DNA from: Rufibacter sp. LB8
GTDB taxonomy: Bacteria > Bacteroidota > Bacteroidia > Cytophagales > Hymenobacteraceae
Reading direction: 5' to 3'
Length of the DNA stretch: 64,000 nt
Assembly (NCBI RefSeq): GCF_014876185.1
Contig: NZ_JADALJ010000001.1
Coordinates: 930,001 to 994,000, forward strand
The translations under genes were made by a program, and so were the position numbers. Under the pieces are notes generated by a model, which did no database searches, was not told where the DNA came from, and saw only the letters and a list, made by a program, of their open reading frames with translations. This document shows, in pieces, positions 12,900-56,005 of this stretch (the first letter of the stretch is position 1; each line of letters begins with the position of its first letter).

Positions 12900-12947
12900 C
12901 GCTCCGTTTTCGGGCTCATTTCTGGAAATGAGCCCGAAAACGGAGCG
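12900..12947. repeat. PAL-A palindrome copy A8 (perfect arms)
   Basis: Outer arms CGCTCCG/CGGAGCG and core TTTTCGGGCTCATTTC with its exact complement form a perfect 23-bp stem. It lies between two minus-strand genes. Confidence 0.95.
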
Positions 12948-26714: not shown

Positions 26715-27022
26715 TTTAAAAGAGGGAAAGGCTTTTTATTTCTACCGAATTAGCAGGAGTTGTATTTTACATTTAACTAGTGAATTACTAGAATATTCTT
26801 GCAAACCGTGAAAATTTCATTCTAATTCTTTCACCTTCTTTCTTAAATAATAGGTGATTTTGTGCTACGTATCTGTGCTTCTGTTTTCGGGCTCATTTCT
26901 GGAAATGAGCCCGAAAACAGAAGATGAATTGGAGGCAATAATATCTCTTATTAAAAAGTTGTCTGTACCTTGGGTGGAGCAACAACTGCCGTTTGAAATC
27001 TTTTTTATTTAACGTTACGCGT
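26715..27022. other. Gap upstream of the SRAP gene
   Basis: It has a perfect palindrome CTAGT-GAATT-ACTAG at 26777-26791 and PAL-A copy A13. TACCTTGG near 26967 weakly resembles a -7 box. No gene is seen. Confidence 0.5.
26878..26923. repeat. PAL-A palindrome copy A13 (perfect arms)
   Basis: Outer arms CTTCTG/CAGAAG with perfect core TTTTCGGGCTCATTTC and its complement. Confidence 0.95.
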
Positions 27023-32960: not shown

Positions 32961-33010
32961 AATTTCTGTTTTCGGCTCCATTTCTGGAAATGAGCCTGAA
33001 AACAGGAATT
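32961..33010. repeat. PAL-A palindrome copy A17
   Basis: Outer AATTTCTG/CAGGAATT arms pair apart from one position; the core is TTTTCGGCTCCATTTC with GAAATGAGCCTGAAAA. Confidence 0.88.
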
Positions 33011-33093
33011 GGTTCTTTTCCCCTAGAACAGCCTTGCCTCGGAGCCCATCTTATCAAGAAAGCACTTATCTTTCCTGCTGACCCAATCACCGC

Positions 33094-33492
33094 ATGGCAA
33101 TTATAGACAAGCTGGCCTGGATAGAACTGCAACACGGGAGAATACTGAGCACCCGCAGCAAAGGCCGCCACAAATATTACATTCCCGGTGGCAAGCGTGA
33201 ACCTGGGGAGACAGATTTCATGGCGCTGGCCCGCGAAATCAAAGAGGAATTATCAGTGGACCTGAAAGAAAAGGAAGCCCGTTACGTGGGCACGTTCCAG
33301 GCGCAGGCCGATGCGCACCCAGACGGCGTGGAGGTGAAAATGACCTGCTACAACGCGGCCTTTTCTGGAAGCATCGCGGCCGCCCATGAGATAGAGGAGG
33401 TGGTGTGGCTTTCCTACGCAGACCGCGAAAAAGTGTCACTTGTGGACCAGCTTATCTTTGACTGGCTTCACCAGAAAGGCATGCTGCTTTAA
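33094..33492 (+). CDS. Nudix hydrolase
   Basis: A 132-residue pyrophosphohydrolase. The Nudix box runs from GGKREPGETDF to LAREIKEELSV at residues ~34-57 and keeps the G-x5-E-x7-RE-x2-EE pattern that binds the divalent metal. The substrate, a nucleoside diphosphate linked to another moiety, cannot be told; the small size resembles MutT-like members. It lies 167 bases downstream of the DnaE-type gene, with PAL-A copy A17 between. Confidence 0.9.
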   Translation: MAIIDKLAWIELQHGRILSTRSKGRHKYYIPGGKREPGETDFMALAREIKEELSVDLKEKEARYVGTFQAQADAHPDGVEVKMTCYNAAFSGSIAAAHEIEEVVWLSYADREKVSLVDQLIFDWLHQKGMLL

Positions 33493-33509
33493 ATAGATTG
33501 GCTAAAAGT

Positions 33510-33547
33510 CGTTTTCGGGCTCATTTCCAGAAATGAACCCGAAAACG
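33510..33547. repeat. PAL-A palindrome copy A18
   Basis: CGTTTTCGGGCTCATTTCC pairs with GAAATGAACCCGAAAACG; one G-A change in the right arm. Confidence 0.92.
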
Positions 33548-33612
33548 CAGCCGAACATCCGTGAGAATTCTCAACTTAAGGAGGAAGGCTAGGCGTGGAA
33601 GCCTTAAAAACA

Positions 33613-33646
33613 AAAAAGCCTGCAAGATTTCTCTTACAGGCTTTTT
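33613..33646 (-). terminator. Terminator downstream of tRNA-Asp (bidirectional shape)
   Basis: Perfect 10-bp stem AAAAAGCCTG (33613-33622) with CAGGCTTTTT (33637-33646). Loop of 14 bases; T tracts on both strands. Confidence 0.85.
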
Positions 33647-33649
33647 ATG

Positions 33650-33723
33650 CGGTCCGGACGGGACTCGAACCCGCGACCTCCGCCGTGACAGGGCGGCATT
33701 CTAACCAACTGAACTACCGGACC
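33650..33723 (-). tRNA. tRNA-Asp (anticodon GTC)
   Basis: On the minus strand the acceptor GGTCCGG pairs with CCGGACC. The D arm contains AGTTCAGTTGGTTAGAA, the anticodon arm is CCGCC-CTGTCAC-GGCGG, and the T arm is CGGGTTCGAGTCCCG. CCA is not encoded. A terminator lies right behind the 3' end. Confidence 0.97.
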
Positions 33724-33853
33724 AAAAACAAATGAAACCAGCTGTTTCGTTTTTGATGGTGCAAATATGCAGTGTTAAATTTTCTTATGCAAGCACCGGT
33801 TGTGAAAAATCATAAATTTAGTTTTCTGCATATAGATTTGCTCCGCTAAACGT

Positions 33854-33893
33854 CCGTTTTGGGGCTCATTTCTGAAAATGAGACCCAAAACGG
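33854..33893. repeat. PAL-A palindrome copy A19 with compensated arm change
   Basis: The arms are CCGTTTTGGGGCTCATTTC and GAAAATGAGACCCAAAACGG. The usual TTTTCGGG has become TTTTGGGG, and the other arm carries the partner CCCAAAA. It ends two bases before the TetR stop codon. Confidence 0.92.
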
Positions 33894-33895
33894 CT

Positions 33896-34465
33896 TTACG
33901 CCTGCAAGTGATTTTTGAGTTGAAGCAAATACCTGATCAACACATCTTGCAACGGAAACCCCGCGTCCACCAGAGAATGCTGCAGAATTCCGTCCAGGGT
34001 AGCCAATAGGAGCGCGGCCTCAGCAGAAGGGGAAGTAGAACCGGCAGCGGCCAACAGTTGCGTTACCTGGCGCAGCGTTTTCTGGTGCTCCAGTTTCAAT
34101 TCCTGGGCAAGGCCCGGCAACACGCTGGCCTGCAACTTTAGCCCAAACTGCAAGCGCCAGAAACCGGGGTTTGTTTCTACCTGGCGGGCGGTGTTGCGCA
34201 CAAACTGTTCCAGGGCTTGAAACGGGGAGAGGCCTTCAGGAGTATCTTGGGGGCTTTGCAGTTCTTTCCGTCCGTTCACCAGCAGGGCGTGCAGCAGCTC
34301 CTCTTTGCTTTTGAAGTAATTGTACAGCAAGCCCAGGGAGATGTTCGCCTCCTGGGCAATCTGCCGAATGGACGTCTTGTCAAAGCCCTGCTCAGAAAAC
34401 AATTTTAAAGCGGCTTCCTGAATGGTTTGGGCGCTGGTCTCGCGCTGGGTTTTGCGTGAATTCAT
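33896..34465 (-). CDS. TetR-family transcriptional regulator
   Basis: A 189-residue repressor with an N-terminal TetR HTH (residues ~12-58: IQEAALKLFSEQGFDKTSIR, QIAQEANISLGLLYNYFKSK) and a helical ligand-binding C-terminal part. The palindrome ATTGAAC-GTTT-GTTCAAT just upstream (34471-34488) is a plausible autoregulatory operator. No transporter or enzyme is divergently transcribed next to it, so its target and ligand remain unknown. Confidence 0.92.
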   Translation of the reverse strand: MNSRKTQRETSAQTIQEAALKLFSEQGFDKTSIRQIAQEANISLGLLYNYFKSKEELLHALLVNGRKELQSPQDTPEGLSPFQALEQFVRNTARQVETNPGFWRLQFGLKLQASVLPGLAQELKLEHQKTLRQVTQLLAAAGSTSPSAEAALLLATLDGILQHSLVDAGFPLQDVLIRYLLQLKNHLQA

Positions 34466-34470
34466 AAATG

Positions 34471-34488
34471 ATTGAACGTTTGTTCAAT
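34471..34488. promoter_or_regulatory. Probable TetR operator
   Basis: Perfect 7-bp arms ATTGAAC and GTTCAAT around GTTT, six bases upstream of the TetR start codon. The position fits autorepression. Confidence 0.7.
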
Positions 34489-34520
34489 TTAGTAAAAGTA
34501 AAAATACCGGCAAAAGAAAT

Positions 34521-34566
34521 CGCCTGTTTTCGGGCTCATTTCTGAAAATGAGCCCGAAAACAGGCG
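34521..34566. repeat. PAL-A palindrome copy A20 (perfect arms)
   Basis: Outer arms CGCCTG/CAGGCG with perfect core. It separates the TetR promoter region from the end of the LytTR gene. Confidence 0.95.
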
Positions 34567-34590
34567 ACTAGAAGTGGGAGTAGAGTTCTT

Positions 34591-35319
34591 TTACAGCTTG
34601 TTGATGCGGCTGTAGAATTTGGCCTGGTAAGACCCGCCAATAGGAATGTATTTGTCCTGCATCAGCACAGAGTCATCTTCAATGAGCTCAATTTTCTTGA
34701 GATTGATGATAAACGACCGGTGAATGCGCAAAAACTGCTCTGGCGGCAATTTCTGGTCAATGGCGCTCATGGTGGTATAGACAATGTGCTTTTTTTGGTC
34801 TGTGTTGATGACCACGTAATCACCGCGCGCCTCAATAAACCCAATGCTGTTCAGGTTCAGCTTCACAATTTTGTTGTCCACTTTCACAAACAGTTCATCT
34901 GGCTGGGCGGCGGCCTGCTGGGGCGCAGCCGTGGGTTGGCTGGTTTCCAGGCGGGCAATGGTGTTCAAAACGGCCTGGGTAAAACGCGCGAAATCGGCAG
35001 GTTTGAGCAGATAATCCACCACCTGGAGTTCAAAAGCCTGCAGCGCGAAGTCTTTGTGCGACGTGATGAGAATGGTATGGGGCCGGGTTGGCAGCGTGCG
35101 CAACAATTCAATGCCGGTCATCTCGGGCATCTCCACATCCAGGAAAAGAATGTCGGTGGTGCCTTCGTTTTTCAGAAGCCAGGCCAGGCCCTCAGTGCTG
35201 GAGTTAAACGATTTCAGCAACTCCAAAGTAGGCGTAGATTTTATGTGGCGTTCTAAGATCATTCGGCTCAGCTCATCATCATCTATGATAATGGCGCGGT
35301 AGGGCGTTTCCTTTTTCAC
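34591..35319 (-). CDS. LytTR-family response regulator
   Basis: A 242-residue two-domain regulator: receiver (residues ~8-125) with acidic IIIDDDELS, phospho-acceptor Asp in ILFLDVEMPEMTG, Ser/Thr in ILITSHKD and Lys in YLLKPADF. A Gln/Ala-rich linker leads to a C-terminal LytTR DNA-binding domain (VKLNLNSIGFIEARGDYVVI, FLRIHRSFIINL). No sensor kinase lies nearby, so it is an orphan here. It is divergent from the C39/RimK/GCS2 operon, which it might control; that is only positional inference. Confidence 0.93.
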   Translation of the reverse strand: MKKETPYRAIIIDDDELSRMILERHIKSTPTLELLKSFNSSTEGLAWLLKNEGTTDILFLDVEMPEMTGIELLRTLPTRPHTILITSHKDFALQAFELQVVDYLLKPADFARFTQAVLNTIARLETSQPTAAPQQAAAQPDELFVKVDNKIVKLNLNSIGFIEARGDYVVINTDQKKHIVYTTMSAIDQKLPPEQFLRIHRSFIINLKKIELIEDDSVLMQDKYIPIGGSYQAKFYSRINKL

Positions 35320-35576
35320 AAGTCCAGGTTTAAGTTGGTTTACGGTACGGCAAAGTGATGAACAGTGCCATTGAGCGCGTTTTAAAAGCCTCTCAGCGTC
35401 TAAAATAGCATAAAACTAAATGCAACAACTAAGAAAGGTGCATTTTGTTTGTACAAAAGTGTTTTCATGGGCTGCCTTTGGGCGGGCAACCGCGCCAAAA
35501 CCAGAATATATTCTGGGTCACAGAGAAACACTGCCGCAAAAACACGTATAAGAGGCACCACCAGCTTTTGACCGTT

Positions 35577-36365
35577 GTGCTTCCTGTCACGCTCCTGAAT
35601 TCCTTTAAAATTCTCACCCAACCAGACGACTCCACCTGCGGGCCCACCAGCCTGCACGCGGTGTACCAGTATTTTGAAGACAAGCTTCCGCTGGAGCAGG
35701 TCATCTCTGAGGTTTCATTTCTGGAGGAAGGCGGCACGCTGGCCGTACTGCTGGGTTGCCATGCGCTCAAACGCGGCTACCAGGCGCGCATTTACTCCTA
35801 TAATTTGTATGTGTTTGACCCCACCTGGTTTAAACAGGGCCGCGACAAACTGATTTCCAACTTGCAGGAGCAGTTGCTCTATAAGAAAGACACCAAACTG
35901 CAGGTAGCCACCCGCGCCTACATTGAGTTCCTGCAACTGGGCGGCGAAATCTGCTACCGTGACCTCACCGTCAGTTTATTAGACAAGTATTTCTCCAGGG
36001 GCGTGCCGCTGCTCACCGGTCTGAGTGCCACCTATCTCTACAACTGCGCCCGCGAAAGAACCAATGAACGCGGCGAGGCCATCTATGACGACGTGCGCGG
36101 CGAGCCACTGGGCCATTTTGTGGTGCTGGCCGGTTTTGCTGATGAGCAGGACAAGCAACACGTAATTGTGGCAGACCCGTACCAGGAAAATCCCTTGTTC
36201 GGGAATAATTATTACAACGTGCCCGTGACCCGGCTCATCAACGCCATTATGCTGGGCATTGTCACCTATGACGCCAACCTGTTGGTGATTGAACCAACCC
36301 CAAATAAAAATAACTCTAAAGACAAAGCAGAAGACCTTCATGCGCAAACTAGTAGTAGTCAATAA
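35577..36365 (+). CDS. C39-like cysteine peptidase, first gene of the amide-ligase operon
   Basis: A ~262-residue papain-fold protein. The catalytic Cys is in QPDDSTCGPTSLHAVYQYF, His in PLGHFVVLAGFAD and Asp in VIVADPY, the bacteriocin-processing (C39) layout without a transporter. There is no signal peptide, so it acts in the cytosol. The start is uncertain: no ATG lies near the domain; GTG 35577 is used here, TTG 35568 is possible, and the ATG at 35445 adds an unlikely extension. Its last 26 bases overlap the RimK-type gene, so translation is coupled. It probably processes or hydrolyses the product of the two ligases. Confidence 0.85.
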   Translation: MLPVTLLNSFKILTQPDDSTCGPTSLHAVYQYFEDKLPLEQVISEVSFLEEGGTLAVLLGCHALKRGYQARIYSYNLYVFDPTWFKQGRDKLISNLQEQLLYKKDTKLQVATRAYIEFLQLGGEICYRDLTVSLLDKYFSRGVPLLTGLSATYLYNCARERTNERGEAIYDDVRGEPLGHFVVLAGFADEQDKQHVIVADPYQENPLFGNNYYNVPVTRLINAIMLGIVTYDANLLVIEPTPNKNNSKDKAEDLHAQTSSSQ

Positions 36366-37815
36366 TCCCAAGGACTGGGATTTAGACGTAGAGGATGTGG
36401 AAGTAGTAGACGCGCAACGGTACCTCACAGACCCCGCTTACACAGAACTGAAAAGCGCGCGCATCTTTAACCTGTGCCGGTCCTACAAATACCAGAGCAG
36501 CGGCTATTACGTGTCTTTACTGGCAGAGGCGCGGGGCCACCGGGCTATTCCCAACATGATCACCATTCAGGACCTCAAGTCCCAGACCATTGTGCGGGCT
36601 ATCACTGATGAACTGGACGAGACCATTCAGAAAAGCCTGAGCAAGCTCAAATCCAAGAACTTCACGCTCAGCATTTATTTCGGGCAGAACGTGGCCAAGC
36701 AGTATGAAAAGCTGAGCAAGCAGTTGCATGACTTGTTTCAGGCCCCGTTGCTGCGCGCGCAGTTTGTTTATAATAAAGAGTGGTCCCTGGAGAGCATCAA
36801 TCCCATTCCGGTGAACGAGGTGCCCGAGCACCACTTGCGGGACCTGTACAAATTCGCGAAGGCCTATTTTGCCCGCAACCGGTTCTCCAGCCTCAGAATG
36901 AACAAGAAGATCTATGACCTGGCCATTCTGGTGAACCCCGCCGACAGTGACCCGCCCTCCAATGACAAGGCCATTCAGCAGTTTATGGAAGCCGGCGACG
37001 CGCTGGGTTTCTACACCGAACTCATCACCAAAGAAGATTACCGCCGCTTGTCTGAGTTTGACGCCTTGTTCATCAGGGAAACCACGTCGGTGAACCACCA
37101 CACGTACCGGTTTGCGCGCAGGGCCCAGTCAGATGGCTTGGTGGTCATTGATGATCCCGTTTCAATTTTGCGCTGCACCAACAAAGTATATCTGGCCGAA
37201 CTCTTGACCAAGGCCAAAGTGGCCATTCCCAAGACCATGATCATCCACCGCCAGAACTGCAACAAGGTGATTGAAGACTTAGGGTTGCCTTGCGTGCTCA
37301 AGAAGCCAGATTCCTCGTTCTCCCAGGGCGTGGTGAAAGTGAAAACCGAGGAAGAACTACAAGACCAACTCAAGGAAATGCTGGCCGAGTCTGATTTGAT
37401 CATTGGGCAGGAATTCAGGCCCACAGATTTTGACTGGCGCATTGGCATCTTAGACAAGCAGCCGCTGTACGCCTGCAAATATTATATGGCCAAAGACCAT
37501 TGGCAGATCTACAACTGGGAAGGCAAGAAGAAAGACATCTCGGGCAATTTTGAGACAGTTCCTTTCGCTGAAGTGCCGTTTTTTGTGCTGCACACCGCCC
37601 TCAAAGCCGCCAACCTCATTGGTGACGGTCTATACGGCGTGGACCTGAAAGAGATAGACGGCAAAGCCTATATTATTGAGGTGAATGACAACCCCAACAT
37701 TGATTACGGCGTGGAAGACAAAGTCTTGAAAAAAGATCTGTACACCACCATTCTCAAGTCTATCAAACGGCGCATTGACAACCAGAAGAACGTAGGCAAC
37801 AATGGACAAAGTTAA
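36340..37815 (+). CDS. RimK-type ATP-grasp amide ligase with N-terminal RLAN domain
   Basis: A 491-residue ligase expected to join a carboxylate to an amine at the cost of ATP. Residues ~1-150 match the RimK-like ATP-grasp N-terminal (RLAN) domain (VVVNNPKDWDLDVEDVEVVD, FNLCRSYKYQSSGYYVSLLA). Residues ~270-480 form the ATP-grasp domain with VLKKPDSSFSQGVVKV for nucleotide binding and YIIEVNDNPNIDYG for metal binding. The start at 36340 (MRKLVVVNN) overlaps the C39 gene by 26 bases, and the 3' end overlaps the GCS2 gene by 14. It is not the ribosomal S6 modifier itself, which lacks RLAN. Confidence 0.92.
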   Translation: MRKLVVVNNPKDWDLDVEDVEVVDAQRYLTDPAYTELKSARIFNLCRSYKYQSSGYYVSLLAEARGHRAIPNMITIQDLKSQTIVRAITDELDETIQKSLSKLKSKNFTLSIYFGQNVAKQYEKLSKQLHDLFQAPLLRAQFVYNKEWSLESINPIPVNEVPEHHLRDLYKFAKAYFARNRFSSLRMNKKIYDLAILVNPADSDPPSNDKAIQQFMEAGDALGFYTELITKEDYRRLSEFDALFIRETTSVNHHTYRFARRAQSDGLVVIDDPVSILRCTNKVYLAELLTKAKVAIPKTMIIHRQNCNKVIEDLGLPCVLKKPDSSFSQGVVKVKTEEELQDQLKEMLAESDLIIGQEFRPTDFDWRIGILDKQPLYACKYYMAKDHWQIYNWEGKKKDISGNFETVPFAEVPFFVLHTALKAANLIGDGLYGVDLKEIDGKAYIIEVNDNPNIDYGVEDKVLKKDLYTTILKSIKRRIDNQKNVGNNGQS

Positions 37816-39043
37816 GAAATTAGGGCTCTTTGAAGGCTTCGGGGTGGAGATGGAATACATGATTGTGGACCGCGACACCTTGCAAGTGAAACCCATTGCC
37901 GATGAAGTGCTCAAAGCCGAGGCCGGTGAGCAAACTTCTGATGTGGAGCGTGGCCCCATGGCCTGGTCCAATGAACTGGTGTTGCATGTGCTGGAGCTCA
38001 AAACCAACGGACCGGCCCCAACCCTTGACAACCTATCTCAGTATTTCCATGGCGAAGTAGTCAGAATCAACCAATTGCTTGAGCCGTTCAATGCCATGTT
38101 GCTGCCCACCGGCGCGCACCCGTTCATGGACCCATTCACCCAAACCAAGCTATGGCCGCATGACTCTTCAGAAATTTATGAAGCCTACAACCAGGTGTTT
38201 GATTGCCGCGGCCATGGTTGGTCAAATCTGCAGAGCACGCACATCAATCTGCCGTTTGCCACTGATGAGGAATTTGGAAGATTGCACGCCGCCATTCGGT
38301 TAATCTTGCCATTGATTCCGGCGTTAAGCGCGGCATCACCAATGTTAGACGGTGAACTGAGCGGACTTCTGGACACGCGGTTGGAAGTCTACCGCAAAAA
38401 CCAGCAACGGATTCCAGAGATTGCCGGACAGGTGGTGCCGGAGGCCGTTTTCACCCAACAGGAATATCAAGCCAAGATATTTGAACCCATGTTTGCGGCC
38501 ATTGCCAAGCATGACCCGGAGGGCATTTTGCAGGAAGAATTCCTGAATTCAAGGGGAGCCATTGCCCGGTTTTCGCGCGGGGCCATTGAGATCAGGATCA
38601 TTGACAACCAGGAATGCCCCAAAGCCGACATTGCCATTGCGGCTCTGGTCACCGAGATCCTGAAAAAACTGGAGAAAGAGGAGTGGGGCAGTTTTGAGCA
38701 TCAGAAAAAAATACCCACCCAAGCGCTGGCCGACCTTTTTCTGAACGCCATCAAGACCGGACCAAACACAGAAATTGCTTCAGGAATATACTTACAGAAC
38801 TTCGGTTTGCCGGCGGGAAAAACTTCCATGAAAACTGTTTGGGAACACCTTTGGGCAGAAGTCAAAAATGCCCCGGTTTTCACCCAGGACCTAACCGAAG
38901 CCATAGAAATTCTGCTGCAGCAAGGCTGTCTGGCGCAACGCATGACCACAGCACTAGGCGAAAACCCAAACCCAGAAAAAATAAGAGACGTGTACCAACA
39001 ACTGGCGCATTGCCTGGCTAAAAACCAATTGTTCACAGCTTGA
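37802..39043 (+). CDS. GCS2-type carboxylate-amine ligase (glutamate-cysteine ligase-like)
   Basis: A 413-residue member of the glutamine-synthetase-fold GCS2 family. The metal and glutamate-binding ExE motif is in GFGVEMEYMIVD at residues ~12-23. NELVLHVLELKTNGPAP and LLPTGAHPFMDP are typical of the family, and ARFSRGAIEIRIIDNQECP near 258 is the second binding motif. It probably activates glutamate or another acid and links it to an amine. It starts 14 bases inside the RimK-type gene, so the three genes form one translationally coupled operon. Glutathione synthesis is less likely because no GshB-type partner is present. Confidence 0.92.
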   Translation: MDKVKKLGLFEGFGVEMEYMIVDRDTLQVKPIADEVLKAEAGEQTSDVERGPMAWSNELVLHVLELKTNGPAPTLDNLSQYFHGEVVRINQLLEPFNAMLLPTGAHPFMDPFTQTKLWPHDSSEIYEAYNQVFDCRGHGWSNLQSTHINLPFATDEEFGRLHAAIRLILPLIPALSAASPMLDGELSGLLDTRLEVYRKNQQRIPEIAGQVVPEAVFTQQEYQAKIFEPMFAAIAKHDPEGILQEEFLNSRGAIARFSRGAIEIRIIDNQECPKADIAIAALVTEILKKLEKEEWGSFEHQKKIPTQALADLFLNAIKTGPNTEIASGIYLQNFGLPAGKTSMKTVWEHLWAEVKNAPVFTQDLTEAIEILLQQGCLAQRMTTALGENPNPEKIRDVYQQLAHCLAKNQLFTA

Positions 39044-39148
39044 GATTTTGCAGTAATTACAGGCTATTGTTAACCAAACCGAAAGAATAATGGTATAAGT
39101 ATCCATTAGCGCCGCTGGGCGAATTGTTCTACCTAAAACTATGAAAAA

Positions 39149-39535
39149 ATGAGTTGGATTATTGAGCTTTTGGTTAACGCCGGAATCATCCTGTTGTTAG
39201 CCTATTTGTTGCCGCAGATTACGGTTAAAAGTTTCTGGACAGCCCTGTGGGTTGCCTTGCTCGTGGCCATTTTGAACGTGTTGGTGGGCTGGTTGCTATC
39301 TGTGATTCTGAACGTGGTTACGTTGGGGCTTATCACTAGCATTGTGCAGCTGATTGTCTCTGCGGTGGTCATCAAGCTAGCCGATAAATTGGTCCGCAAC
39401 TTTGAGATAAAAGGCTTCTGGCCAGCTTTAGTCATTGCCATTGCGCTGGCCGCCGCCAATTATCTGATTGATGGGTCAGACAACGACCGTGAGGACATCT
39501 CTGGTTTCACGCCTAAAGTGGAATTGACCGCATAA
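39149..39535 (+). CDS. Phage-holin-4-superfamily membrane protein
   Basis: A 128-residue protein with about four transmembrane segments (MSWIIELLVNAGIILLLAYL, FWTALWVALLVAILNVLVGW, ILNVVTLGLITSIVQLIVSA, FWPALVIAIALAAANYLI) and a short charged tail. This matches the PF04020 phage-holin-4 superfamily, chromosomal in most bacteria and of unknown role. A terminator follows. It lies 105 bases after the GCS2 gene and may or may not belong to that transcript. Confidence 0.87.
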   Translation: MSWIIELLVNAGIILLLAYLLPQITVKSFWTALWVALLVAILNVLVGWLLSVILNVVTLGLITSIVQLIVSAVVIKLADKLVRNFEIKGFWPALVIAIALAAANYLIDGSDNDREDISGFTPKVELTA

Positions 39536-39559
39536 CCTCATATCTTGTATACATAAAAA

Positions 39560-39597
39560 CGGCGATGGCTTCCTAAAAGTCATCGCCGCTTTTTTTT
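39560..39597 (+). terminator. Terminator after the holin-4 gene
   Basis: Stem CGGCGATG (39560-39567) with CATCGCCG (39581-39588), followed by a T tract of eight. Confidence 0.9.
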
Positions 39598-39610
39598 GGC
39601 TTTAATTTGA

Positions 39611-39658
39611 TTTGCCGTTTTTGGGCTCATTTCTGGAAATGAGCCCGAAAACGGCAAA
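39611..39658. repeat. PAL-A palindrome copy A21
   Basis: Outer arms TTTGCCG/CGGCAAA are perfectly paired; the core has a single T-G change. It lies between convergent genes. Confidence 0.94.
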
Positions 39659-39662
39659 CATC

Positions 39663-40595
39663 TTAATATCCCTGGGTAAGATTTACTTTGTCAGGCACTG
39701 GTTTCGCGGCAAGAAAAAGGTCAAGGTTTCTTAAAAAGCGGTTGATTTTTCCTTCGGTTTCCAGCACTTGTCCGCCGCCAGTGTGTTGGGTGAGAAGTAC
39801 GTTTTCCAAATCCCAGAGAGGAGAGAAGGCGGGCAAGGGTTCTTGTTCGGTTACGTCCAGTACTGCGCCGGCCAGTTTCTGGTTTTGTAAAGCGGTTATC
39901 AGCGCGGCTTCATCAGTGGTGGAACCGCGGCCCACGCTGGCATACAAACTTCCATCGGCCATGTTGGCAAAAAAATCAGCAGATACAAAATGGACCAGGT
40001 GCCCCGGCAAGGTGTTGATCACAATCTGAACCATTGGGAGCTGTTCTAAAATAGCTTCATAAGACAGTAAATCTGCCGCCGGATTCTGCCTGCCCGAAAG
40101 CCACACCTGGCACCCAAACCCTAGCAGCATCTTTTTGATGGCCTGCGCAATGGAACCGGCACCTAACACCAGCACTTTTTTACCAGAAAGCAACTCCAGA
40201 TTGGGCCGAAGCAGTTTTCCTTTCCATTGCTTCTGCTCCTGCAGTTTCACCAAAGTAGGAATGCCCCGGTAAAAAGCCAGAAGGCCGGCTACCATGGTTT
40301 CTGCGCAGGCTTGGGCGTAAAAATCACCCATGTTGGCCACCGTGCAAGAAAGGTCGAGGTCTTTGTATTGGTGAAAACCGGTAGAGTCCAGTTGCCAGAA
40401 CTGCAGGGCGGGTAGGGGACCGGCAAGCCATTGCACCGGAGGGTTGCCAAAGATAATTTCCGCTTGGCGCAATGCCACCAGAACTTCTTTCTCCTGCATT
40501 TCAGCCGCGAAAACCGTTTTGAACCCGGCGGGCAAATTGGCCAGGAGCAGGACTTGTTGGGTTTGGTTGAGTTCTGCGGAAACAAATAGATTCAT
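39663..40595 (-). CDS. D-2-hydroxyacid dehydrogenase family protein
   Basis: A 310-residue NAD-dependent dehydrogenase of the phosphoglycerate dehydrogenase superfamily. The dinucleotide motif VLVLGAGSIAQAIKKM is at residues ~140-155. Catalytic Arg is in SVGRGSTTDE, Glu in DVTEQEPLP and His in LLTQHTGGGQ. The second Gly of the usual GxGxxG is replaced by Ala, which is common in this group. Substrate unknown; glyoxylate/hydroxypyruvate reductase-like is likeliest. It is followed on the same strand by nothing closer than the PAL-A copy A21. Confidence 0.9.
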   Translation of the reverse strand: MNLFVSAELNQTQQVLLLANLPAGFKTVFAAEMQEKEVLVALRQAEIIFGNPPVQWLAGPLPALQFWQLDSTGFHQYKDLDLSCTVANMGDFYAQACAETMVAGLLAFYRGIPTLVKLQEQKQWKGKLLRPNLELLSGKKVLVLGAGSIAQAIKKMLLGFGCQVWLSGRQNPAADLLSYEAILEQLPMVQIVINTLPGHLVHFVSADFFANMADGSLYASVGRGSTTDEAALITALQNQKLAGAVLDVTEQEPLPAFSPLWDLENVLLTQHTGGGQVLETEGKINRFLRNLDLFLAAKPVPDKVNLTQGY

Positions 40596-40673
40596 ACAAG
40601 TCTTAACGGTCAGTTAACCCGAAGGTGGTCTATTGGGAACAGAAACCTCGGGAAAAAGTTGTCATGCCGTGGC

Positions 40674-40713
40674 CCGTTTTCGGGCTCATTTCCAGAAATG
40701 AGCCCGAAAACAG
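40674..40713. repeat. PAL-A palindrome copy A22
   Basis: CCGTTTTCGGGCTCATTTCC with GAAATGAGCCCGAAAACAGG; core perfect. It ends three bases before the NdpA stop codon. Confidence 0.94.
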
Positions 40714-40716
40714 GAA

Positions 40717-41760
40717 TTATTCCTCGTCTTCGTAGAACAACTTGTAAAACTTGCGGCCGTCTTGGTCCACGCCTTTTTCAATCATGTCTTTGTTGCCGTG
40801 AATGTACACATGGAAGTTTTTGTCCAGCTTGAGCACGCTCTTGAACACGCGGCTCTGCTTCTTGACGGCCTGCGGTGAAATCCCGAAGCTGTCTTCCAGT
40901 TCCACGTCATAATTCTGGCGGTACTCGCCGTCATAGTTTCTGAAAGATTCAATCAGCTCCGGTTGCTGGCCAAACACCTCGGTCTCAAATTCCTCTTTGT
41001 CAAAGGTCTCATGCTTGGTAAAATATTCCACAGAGCGGTTGAGCAGTGCAATCTGGTCGGTTTTCTCTACTTCAAATTCCTCGGTCATCCGCTCTGAGAT
41101 AAACTCTTTGGTGAGGTTCAAAAAATGGTTAGTCTGGTGGAATTCATTACTGATCTGGGTGAGGCCCAGAAAATTAGTCCGCCAGTATTGGGCTTCCTCG
41201 CCGCGGTTCTGGTTGTCAATAATGGCCACCACAAAACCCTGGTCTTGCTGCGTGTTGAAGATAATGCAGCCTTTGTCAAACTTGTTGCTGTCAATGCCCT
41301 CTAGGTAAGAAATGGTGTAGTCGCGGTTTTTGCGCTGCACGTCAAAATAGCCGCTTTTTACCTCGGTCTTGAAAATGCCCACGGCCTCCACCACGCGCTC
41401 GGCAATCTCACAGTTAATGAAATGACACACGTACAACTCACCGGGCTTGATTTTAGGATGCGTGGTGCTCTCAAACAAGTGGCGGGCAATGCTGCGCGAA
41501 TTCTCATGAAAGGCTTCTTTGTCCGCGAAAATGTTTTCACAATAGCTGTACACCTCATTGAATTTAAGCGAAGAGGCATGGCTGAAATGGAACCGCTCAT
41601 GGGCGTTGGCGAACTTGGCCAGAAAGAATTTCTCCAATTTGTCGGTCAGGCCATCGCCCGGCGAAAACTCACTTTCTGACAAGGTTACTTTCTGTTCCAG
41701 CCCTTTGTTCCCCACGTGGTGAATGGAAAGGCGGGTGAGGGAGGCGGTGTCAAATTTCAT
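40717..41760 (-). CDS. 37-kDa nucleoid-associated protein (NdpA/YejK family)
   Basis: A 347-residue protein of the PF04245 family. Features include LTRLSIHHVGNKG at the start, CHFINCEIAERVVEAVGIFK in the first third, and DKGCIIFNTQQDQGFVVAII, where the family has a conserved strand core. The C-terminus is acidic and ends FYKLFYEDEE. YejK binds the nucleoid in E. coli, and some relatives occur near mobile or defence genes, but no such genes are next to this one. ATG 41760 is well supported. Confidence 0.9.
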   Translation of the reverse strand: MKFDTASLTRLSIHHVGNKGLEQKVTLSESEFSPGDGLTDKLEKFFLAKFANAHERFHFSHASSLKFNEVYSYCENIFADKEAFHENSRSIARHLFESTTHPKIKPGELYVCHFINCEIAERVVEAVGIFKTEVKSGYFDVQRKNRDYTISYLEGIDSNKFDKGCIIFNTQQDQGFVVAIIDNQNRGEEAQYWRTNFLGLTQISNEFHQTNHFLNLTKEFISERMTEEFEVEKTDQIALLNRSVEYFTKHETFDKEEFETEVFGQQPELIESFRNYDGEYRQNYDVELEDSFGISPQAVKKQSRVFKSVLKLDKNFHVYIHGNKDMIEKGVDQDGRKFYKLFYEDEE

Positions 41761-41969: not shown

Positions 41970-42647
41970 ATGATGCGCGTGGCTATAAAATTTATGGTGT
42001 TTACGGTGCTAGGCCTGGTGTTGCTGGTGGGACTTTACTTTTTGGCCGCCTTCGTGCTGTCAAGGTTATCTGTGCACAGAGCAGAAAACGCCAAACCGGA
42101 GGTGGCTATCTATCTGCTGTCTAATGGCGTACACACAGATTTGGTGGTACCCATGGTGCATCCTGTAATGGACTGGAACACGTATATTTCTGTTACAGAT
42201 ACCAAAGATCCAGCCTTTGACGCCAAGTACGTGGGTTTTGGCTGGGGCGACAAAGGATTTTACCTGGAAACGCCCACCTGAGCCGATTTAAAAGTGAGTA
42301 CCGCGTTTAAAGCCATGTTCGGGCTGAGTTCCTCGGCGATTCACGCCACATTATTCACAAATCTAGAGGAAAATGATGATTGCAAGAAAATCTGGCTTAG
42401 TCAGGCGCAATACCAGCAATTGGTAGCGTTTATTAAGAATCGATTCAAAACCACGTCCACCGGAAAACCCATGCACATCAAGACCAACGCCAACTACGGC
42501 CTGCATGACGCGTTTTACGAAGCCGTGGGAAGTTACCATTTGTTTTACACCTGCAACACCTGGACCAACAACGGTTTAAAAGCCAGCGGCCAGAAAGCCT
42601 GCGTCTGGACACCGCTGGAATCTGGCATTTTATACCAGTACCGCTAA
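41970..42647 (+). pseudogene. TIGR02117/DUF2459-family gene interrupted by an in-frame TGA
   Basis: Two open frames, 41970-42281 and 42294-42647, lie in the same reading frame and together encode one TIGR02117 protein of 225 codons: an N-terminal membrane anchor (VFTVLGLVLLVGLYFLAAFV), LLSNGVHTDLVVP, GFGWGDKGFYLETPT, then the TGA at 42279-42281, then ADLKVSTAFKAMFG and a C-terminal part with YTCNTWTNNGLKASG. Homologues usually have Trp at the TGA position (PTWADLK), so one base change TGG to TGA explains it. The rest looks intact, which suggests a recent mutation, a sequencing error or read-through. Confidence 0.85.
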
Positions 42648-55961: not shown

Positions 55962-56005
55962 TCCCGTTTTCGGGCTCATTTCTGGAAATGAGCCCGAAAA
56001 CGGGA
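55962..56005. repeat. PAL-A palindrome copy A27 (perfect arms)
   Basis: Outer TCCCG/CGGGA and perfect core. It sits between the barrel gene end and the tRNA-Thr terminator. Confidence 0.95.

Follow-up and report, generated by a model that had tools for sequence, protein, structure and literature searches.

In a 64,000-nucleotide stretch of the genome of Rufibacter sp. LB8 (contig NZ_JADALJ010000001.1, positions 930,001 to 994,000; hereafter the window, whose own numbering is used), three overlapping plus-strand genes encode, in this order, a C39-type (papain-like) peptidase, an ATP-grasp ligase with a RLAN domain, and a GCS2 carboxylate-amine ligase. We suggest, with a probability of about 0.5, that these genes constitute a dedicated pathway that makes and turns over a small gamma-glutamyl peptide-like molecule, following the logic of glutathione. 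The three-gene core recurs in 14 named phyla and, with a fourth gene of the N-formylglutamate-amidohydrolase family (FG, PF05013) behind it, in 11, which signals a real pathway. If the gamma-glutamyl reading is true, the operon would represent a further glutathione-like peptide system, and one with cultured carriers.

The peptidase gene (35577-36365) starts with GTG and encodes 262 amino acids, matching Pfam Peptidase_C39_2 at 32.7 bits (cut-off 24) and Peptidase_C39 at 23.8 bits (cut-off 22); the N-terminus MLPVTLLNS given by this start is the same in relatives from the sister loci L081, L082 and L083. The following gene (36340-37815, ATG start, 491 amino acids) encodes a RLAN domain (170.7 bits, cut-off 25, E 2.1e-50) joined to a RimK-like ATP-grasp part (39.4 bits, cut-off 21), and thus a member of the RLAN-ATP-grasp family (PF14401); it is the one RLAN gene in a genome of 4.75 Mb that is 99.8% complete, and its nearest named relatives among the matches listed are from Sabulibacter ruber, Rufibacter glacialis and R. 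roseus, with 89-91% identity. The third gene (37802-39043, ATG start, 413 amino acids) belongs to glutamate-cysteine ligase family 2 (GCS2, PF04107) both by score (99.5 bits, cut-off 21, E 2.9e-28) and by a predicted fold of the glutamate-cysteine ligase (GCL)/YbdK kind. The peptidase and RLAN open reading frames (ORFs) share 26 nucleotides and the two ligase ORFs share 14, so that coordinates and Pfam together confirm the overlapping arrangement that an earlier note on this DNA had described.

To what extent is this order kept? A scan of GTDB genomes returned at least 581 RLAN relatives, the best 80 of which were retained for locus counts. The query alignment consisted solely of RLAN proteins beside GCS2, and the 80 loci are therefore the operon's closest kin and no fair sample of RLAN genes; many of the records are metagenome bins, and phylum labels are the records' own. 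Genes were called adjacent when they lay on one strand with small gaps. By this measure, C39-RLAN-GCS2-FG was found at 41 loci, C39-RLAN-GCS2 at 20, RLAN-GCS2 at eight, RLAN alone at six, RLAN-GCS2-FG at three and C39-RLAN at two, where the numbers of missing genes are upper bounds because some loci end near the operon. The trio was thus in order at 61 of the 80 loci, spanning 14 named phyla and one unplaced deltaproteobacterial record, and FG directly followed the trio's GCS2 gene at 41, in 11 named phyla. The window's operon shares the C39-RLAN-GCS2 adjacency. With the same order at 61 of 80 related loci, the arrangement lies far beyond chance, and the conservation on which the earlier note had staked its proposal is borne out, as is its suggestion that N-formylglutamate amidohydrolase genes be sought beside orthologous operons. 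Median gaps in the set are about 3 nucleotides between C39 and RLAN, -7 between RLAN and GCS2, and -26 between GCS2 and FG, with starts estimated from profiles. Cultured carriers include Rufibacter, Pontibacter, Fibrobacter intestinalis, Alkaliflexus and Nitrosomonas sp. Nm132, among which Fibrobacter intestinalis and Alkaliflexus imshenetskii are named isolates with all four genes, and other carrier records come from rumen, groundwater and bog.

In a phylum sample of 395 genomes, 44 had RLAN. Gene order was counted in 40 RLAN neighbourhoods, leaving the window and three further genomes (G360, G155 and G370) outside the counts: 26 had C39-RLAN-GCS2, three had RLAN-GCS2, and 11 had a long RLAN gene without the others. 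One locus with split ligase ORFs (L031, genome G179) is counted among the 26 trios and was left out of the tree. Among the 29 regions with GCS2, FG was detected by profile in 20 and called directly after GCS2 in 19, one of which was checked by Pfam (PF05013). As for the genomes outside the counts, G360 has a long RLAN ORF beside which no C39, GCS2 or FG gene was found, in G155 a weak C39-like match (28.5 bits) comes after a 298-residue RLAN-like ORF, and G370 has a broken RLAN match with stops and no ORF match. In a RLAN tree of 121 rows built by a quick method, the window's protein groups with those of Sabulibacter and Rufibacter (four rows, support 100), while 12 long rows, of the GNAT type by length, fall into two groups.

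The association statistics, all of which ignore kinship, indicate which of the genes travel together. FG is present at 45 of the 72 loci with GCS2 and at none of the eight without it (Fisher 0.0008), and C39 at 62 of 72 versus two of eight (Fisher 0.0006); both associations persist among the 66 loci with enough flank (p 0.006 for FG-GCS2 and 0.004 for C39-GCS2). FG likewise occurs at 43 of the 64 loci with C39 and at two of the 16 without. The RLAN protein also exists in another setting. In the phylum sample, the 11 long RLAN proteins span 642-718 residues; the four scanned with Pfam are all GNAT-RLAN-ATP-grasp fusions, the remaining seven being assigned to this type by length alone, and no C39, GCS2 or FG gene was found beside any of the 11 in the 19-kb regions around them. 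Since FG and C39 associate with GCS2 and not with RLAN alone, they look like partners of a GCS2-dependent product, whereas RLAN also exists on its own or as a GNAT fusion. Among the four proteins at 41 loci, distance matrices correlated at 0.80-0.90, a level reached in 0 of 999 permutations. Ten neighbours were scanned at loci lacking C39 or GCS2, of which three had no Pfam match and the rest belonged to varied families; an alpha/beta-hydrolase upstream of RLAN at one locus (L115) could be a peptidase.

The window itself does not have FG directly after GCS2. The place between GCS2 and the next gene (39044-39148, plus strand) is empty, and in the sister loci L081-L083 FG fills the corresponding place between GCS2 and a holin-4 gene. 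A tblastn search of 33001-41000 with two operon FG proteins revealed no significant remnant (best E 0.38). In all 14 other RLAN-positive genomes of the genus, a comparison of coordinates by eye puts a PF05013 gene downstream of the RLAN match, at a distance of about 2.65 kb and on the same strand, and the sole PF05013 match in the window's genome is a paralogue at 382 kb, which scores 287 bits against the profile of operon FGs. This paralogue (1417-2193 in locus L161) directly follows a gene for an S66 LD-carboxypeptidase (477-1394; the pair lies at about 381-382.6 kb of contig C1 of the window's genome, G000). Of 16 genomes of the genus, 12 have the S66-FG pair, and in all 12 S66 lies directly upstream; this pairing may point to a murein-peptide role for the paralogue. 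Two side observations concern the same family: genomes G403 and G408 each have a third PF05013 gene, and an IS1-like transposase ORF, recognized by eye, lies just downstream of the paralogue (L161, 2300-3016). The reverse loss has taken place in another genome of the genus, G404 (locus L190, 8337-9147), from which C39, RLAN and GCS2 are gone and FG is kept between the LytTR and holin-4 genes, just behind a weak 18-residue match to the end of GCS2 (E 0.13). These natural losses, of FG in the window and of the trio in G404, allow a comparative test of the pathway.

Residues that resemble active-site positions vary little or not at all. In the peptidase, Gln15, Cys21, His180 and Asp200 are shared by all 43 aligned relatives, and we take them to be the likely catalytic set by analogy with papain-like enzymes. 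The AlphaFold2 model of the RLAN ligase (mean predicted local distance difference test, pLDDT, 88.1; predicted template-modelling score, pTM, 0.64) adopts, by its best Foldseek matches, the fold of RimK, LysX and ArgX across about 300 residues, with the RLAN domain at residues 25-167, and K321, R367, D435, E447 and N449 are identical in 59 of 59 proteins. Seven glutamate contacts of RimK are given in the available part of PMC10092738, four of which fall within the aligned part (S7, R8 and S14 being unaligned): R64, R189 and N262 match R246, R367 and N449 of the RLAN protein, identical in 59 of 59, and S68 falls on a variable position, which is S in 25 of 59. The GCS2 model (pLDDT 95.1, pTM 0.94) aligns with 1tt4, YbdK (1r8g) and plant GCL (2gwc) at VIA-align Z scores of 38.9, 38.6 and 35.0, and more distantly resembles the depupylase Dop and the Pup ligase PafA (Z about 16-21). 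Among its residues, E16 and E18 are kept in 49 of 50 proteins, the other row having a gap, and E58, H106, N149 and R251 in 50 of 50. At the level of sequence, a profile of 18 GCS2 proteins had no solved relative at E 0.01, and one of 50 proteins reached YbdK weakly among the solved structures (E 0.048). For FG, the closest solved relative is Atu2144 (2odf, E 4.7e-36), and C12, E13, H14, H124, H128, E204 and E206 do not vary across the 22 aligned proteins, which include the paralogue from the window's genome.

Enzymes of the GCS2 family form an amide between a side-chain carboxyl group and an amine, and those of the RimK/GshB type of ATP-grasp fold build onto a carboxylate. In the pathway we propose, the GCS2 ligase would use ATP to activate glutamate, or an acid like it, at the side-chain carboxyl and join it to an amine X, giving gamma-Glu-X, after which the RLAN/RimK-like enzyme would activate a C-terminal carboxylate and add a second amine Y, giving gamma-Glu-X-Y. 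This would be the order of ligation by GshA and then GshB in glutathione synthesis, carried out by other enzymes and presumably on other substrates. The FG hydrolase would cut the gamma-glutamyl amide, a function for which the window's genome would have, at most, the paralogue at 382 kb, and the C39 peptidase may cleave or trim the other amide. According to the available part of PMC9397018, a PF05013 protein is listed as the gamma-glutamylglycine amidohydrolase of an ethanolamine gamma-glutamylation pathway. Because this activity would reverse the putative GCS2 bond, and because FG stands directly behind GCS2, we favor a gamma-glutamyl peptide served by two ligases and two hydrolases. It is tempting to go further, and we do so only tentatively, rating the extension as doubtful: the product might be a widespread gamma-glutamyl oligopeptide cofactor or a storage or protective molecule, so far unrecognized, that at least 14 bacterial phyla make in addition to the usual thiols and not in their place, with two dedicated ligases for its synthesis and two hydrolases for its turnover, in which case RLAN would be the substrate-recognition module and the GNAT-RLAN fusions would make an acetyl-capped variant.

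Several points weigh against the gamma-glutamyl peptide pathway. The acceptor may be a protein or peptide, and the assignment of the PF05013 protein rests, in the available part of PMC9397018, on bioinformatic and transcriptional analysis. FG appears to be a separable partner, and not a member of an obligatory four-enzyme pathway, because the window lost FG alone and G404 kept FG alone. The genes are also not always together, as 20 of 61 trios lack an adjacent FG and 11 of 72 RLAN-GCS2 pairs an adjacent C39 (some loci ending near the operon), and RLAN can act without GCS2, since it occurs with none of the others at six of 80 loci and in the GNAT fusions. Owing to the choice of query, the operon is over-represented at the 80 loci relative to RLAN genes at large, and the correlations between protein distances at the 41 loci drop to 0.31-0.59 when close pairs are removed.

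An unlikely alternative is protein modification, with the two ligases attaching amino acids to a cellular protein and the C39 and FG enzymes removing them, much as RimK and RimB do on ribosomal protein S6; the available parts of PMC11957791 and PMC12239564 describe RimB as taking off the glutamates added by RimK. The ATP-grasp half is indeed closest to RimK, and the genome has a rim locus of similar make-up, with a PF05618 protease, RimK and an AstE/AspA-type deacylase (L206, 2377000-2381000 of contig C1, RimK at about 2.379 Mb). Three of the four aligned glutamate contacts of RimK are matched by invariant residues, but two of them, R189 and N262, say little about glutamate because they sit at the ATP-grasp catalytic centre, and the fourth, S68, is not kept. 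The likeness of GCS2 to the Pup ligase and depupylase, which would also fit protein modification, is much weaker than its likeness to GCL and YbdK. Nor did a candidate target emerge beside the operon, as no neighbour cluster other than the four operon genes occurs at more than 15 of the 80 loci (clusters were not annotated individually). With regard to S6 itself, the RLAN ligase scores 26 bits against the RimK equivalog model NF007764 (cut-off 331), which the genome's separate, true RimK passes at 387.2 bits; as that RimK has its own locus, S6 glutamylation is covered elsewhere in the genome, and the operon as an S6-modifying RimK is rejected. A glutathione-like thiol that replaces glutathione or bacillithiol would share the two-ligase logic of GshA and GshB, and strong matches to glutathione synthetase (PF02955) occur in only two of the 44 genomes of the phylum sample that carry RLAN; because RimK paralogues blur this search, a match was read as GshB solely at E < 1e-48, a cut of our own that retained 19 genomes. 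We nevertheless see only a slim chance of it, given that 384 of the 395 sampled genomes have BshC (bacillithiol synthase), as do the window's genome and all 44 RLAN carriers, so that a low-molecular thiol is probably made anyway and the replacement of a missing one is disfavored. Neither ligase reaches the glutathione models, GCS2 scoring 32.6 bits against the cyanobacterial GshA model TIGR02048 (cut-off 249.05) and the RLAN protein 18.7 bits against the glutathione synthase model NF003573 (cut-off 272). By model scores and gene content, then, the product is neither S6 glutamylation nor glutathione, the two outcomes that would have undone the earlier note's proposal, and with the gene order kept, its operon for an uncharacterized amide-bond pathway is well supported.

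Three further explanations call on other products. The operon might make a dipeptide osmolyte resembling N-acetylglutaminylglutamine amide (NAGGN) with one or more ligases and a dedicated peptidase, an idea that draws on the GNAT-RLAN-ATP-grasp fusions, given that NAGGN synthetase combines GNAT with ATP-grasp, and on a few carriers with halophile names, e.g., Anaerophaga thermohalophila and Salibacteraceae. It strikes us as quite improbable, because the model of that synthetase, TIGR03103, is not among the 23 families matched by one fusion (L051) at E <=0.001, the best 25 of 26 families of another (L059) or the best 25 of 38 for the window's RLAN protein (the rest being weaker than E 0.0054), and because carriers also come from rumen, groundwater and bog. 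A gamma-D-Glu bond occurs in murein, and a side path of murein-peptide recycling, in which FG-type hydrolases cut gamma-glutamyl bonds of murein peptides and the ligases re-use the pieces, would agree with the position of the FG paralogue directly after S66 in all 12 of the genus genomes where this paralogue occurs; we hold this to be very unlikely for the operon, around which, in the called genes of the 40 and 80 operon or RLAN loci and the window, no S66 gene was found with the window genome's S66 as query (other murein-recycling genes were not searched). Lastly, the maturation of bacteriocins is a task of C39 peptidases, and graspetides are products of ATP-grasp enzymes, so the operon could modify and mature a ribosomally made, graspetide-like peptide. 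This we find barely credible: Pfam finds no transporter domain in the 262-residue C39 protein, which thus lacks the ABC transporter part of bacteriocin-processing C39 enzymes, and clustering of 2036 small ORFs (18-90 residues) within 1 kb of the 80 operons gave no recurrent precursor (elsewhere in the genome none was sought). The largest small-ORF family was found at five of 80 loci, all Pontibacter, on which ground an adjacent precursor peptide is rejected, in agreement with the earlier note. A role in anti-phage defence was considered separately and is rejected, as neither C39, RLAN, GCS2 nor a sister FG has a PADLOC match at E 0.01.

The genes that flank the operon lie outside the conserved unit. 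Upstream is a divergent LytTR response regulator (34594-35319, minus strand; Pfam LytTR 73.1 bits, cut-off 22.6), and downstream a Phage_holin_4_2-like membrane protein (39149-39535, plus strand; 69.8 bits, cut-off 28.8, E 3.4e-19). Both had been mentioned in the earlier note, and a role for either is not supported: they are neighbours in close kin only, LytTR at three of the 80 loci and holin-4 at five (in one of these on the opposite strand), and are rejected as operon partners. The window also contains a 24-base palindrome, GGGCTCATTTC NNN AAATGAGCCC, with 30 strand-wise matches at 16 sites (<=2 mismatches; 0 expected), including 12912-12935, 26889-26912, 34532-34555, 39623-39646, 40682-40705 and 55972-55995; the three copies nearest the operon are intergenic. 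The genome has 304 exact forward-strand matches, versus 0 for the reversed control, and the palindrome looks like a REP-type dispersed repeat. Separately, two plus-strand ORFs at 41970-42281 (103 residues) and 42294-42647 (117 residues) are in one frame with a single stop codon between them and read like one interrupted protein.

The link between these families is probably not new. Iyer et al. reportedly described, in 2009, RLAN-RimK ATP-grasp proteins with links to GCS2, a papain-like peptidase and FGase, and predicted amidoligase families, so the RLAN/GCS2/peptidase association had probably been predicted there. Our literature search found no paper recognizably on the C39-RLAN-GCS2 operon, subscription literature being largely outside its scope. 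The present analysis contributes the gene order and its spread over phyla, the association statistics, the absence of FG from the window, the loss of the trio in G404 and the S66-FG pair, which may in part go beyond the 2009 work.

The operon can be placed among known systems. Glutathione synthesis, with a GshA of GCS2 type and an ATP-grasp GshB, likewise uses two ATP-dependent amide ligases of the same folds, but the operon's ligases stay below the glutathione models, the operon includes hydrolases, and BshC is present anyway. The RimK-RimB locus of S6 glutamylation also sets a RimK-like ATP-grasp ligase next to a peptidase, to which the genome's rim locus adds a deacylase; the operon differs in its extra RLAN domain, its extra GCS2 ligase and the family of its peptidase. 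The GNAT-RLAN-ATP-grasp fusions have the RLAN and ATP-grasp domains in common with the operon ligase and differ from it by an N-terminal GNAT and by neighbourhoods in which no C39, GCS2 or FG was found. The gamma-glutamylation pathways of GlnA4 type, as presented in the available part of PMC9397018, bring together a ligase that forms gamma-glutamyl bonds and an amidohydrolase of the PF05013 family, as the pathway proposed here would; in the operon, however, the ligase is GCS2 and not of the glutamine-synthetase type (PF00120), and a second ligase and a C39 peptidase stand beside it.

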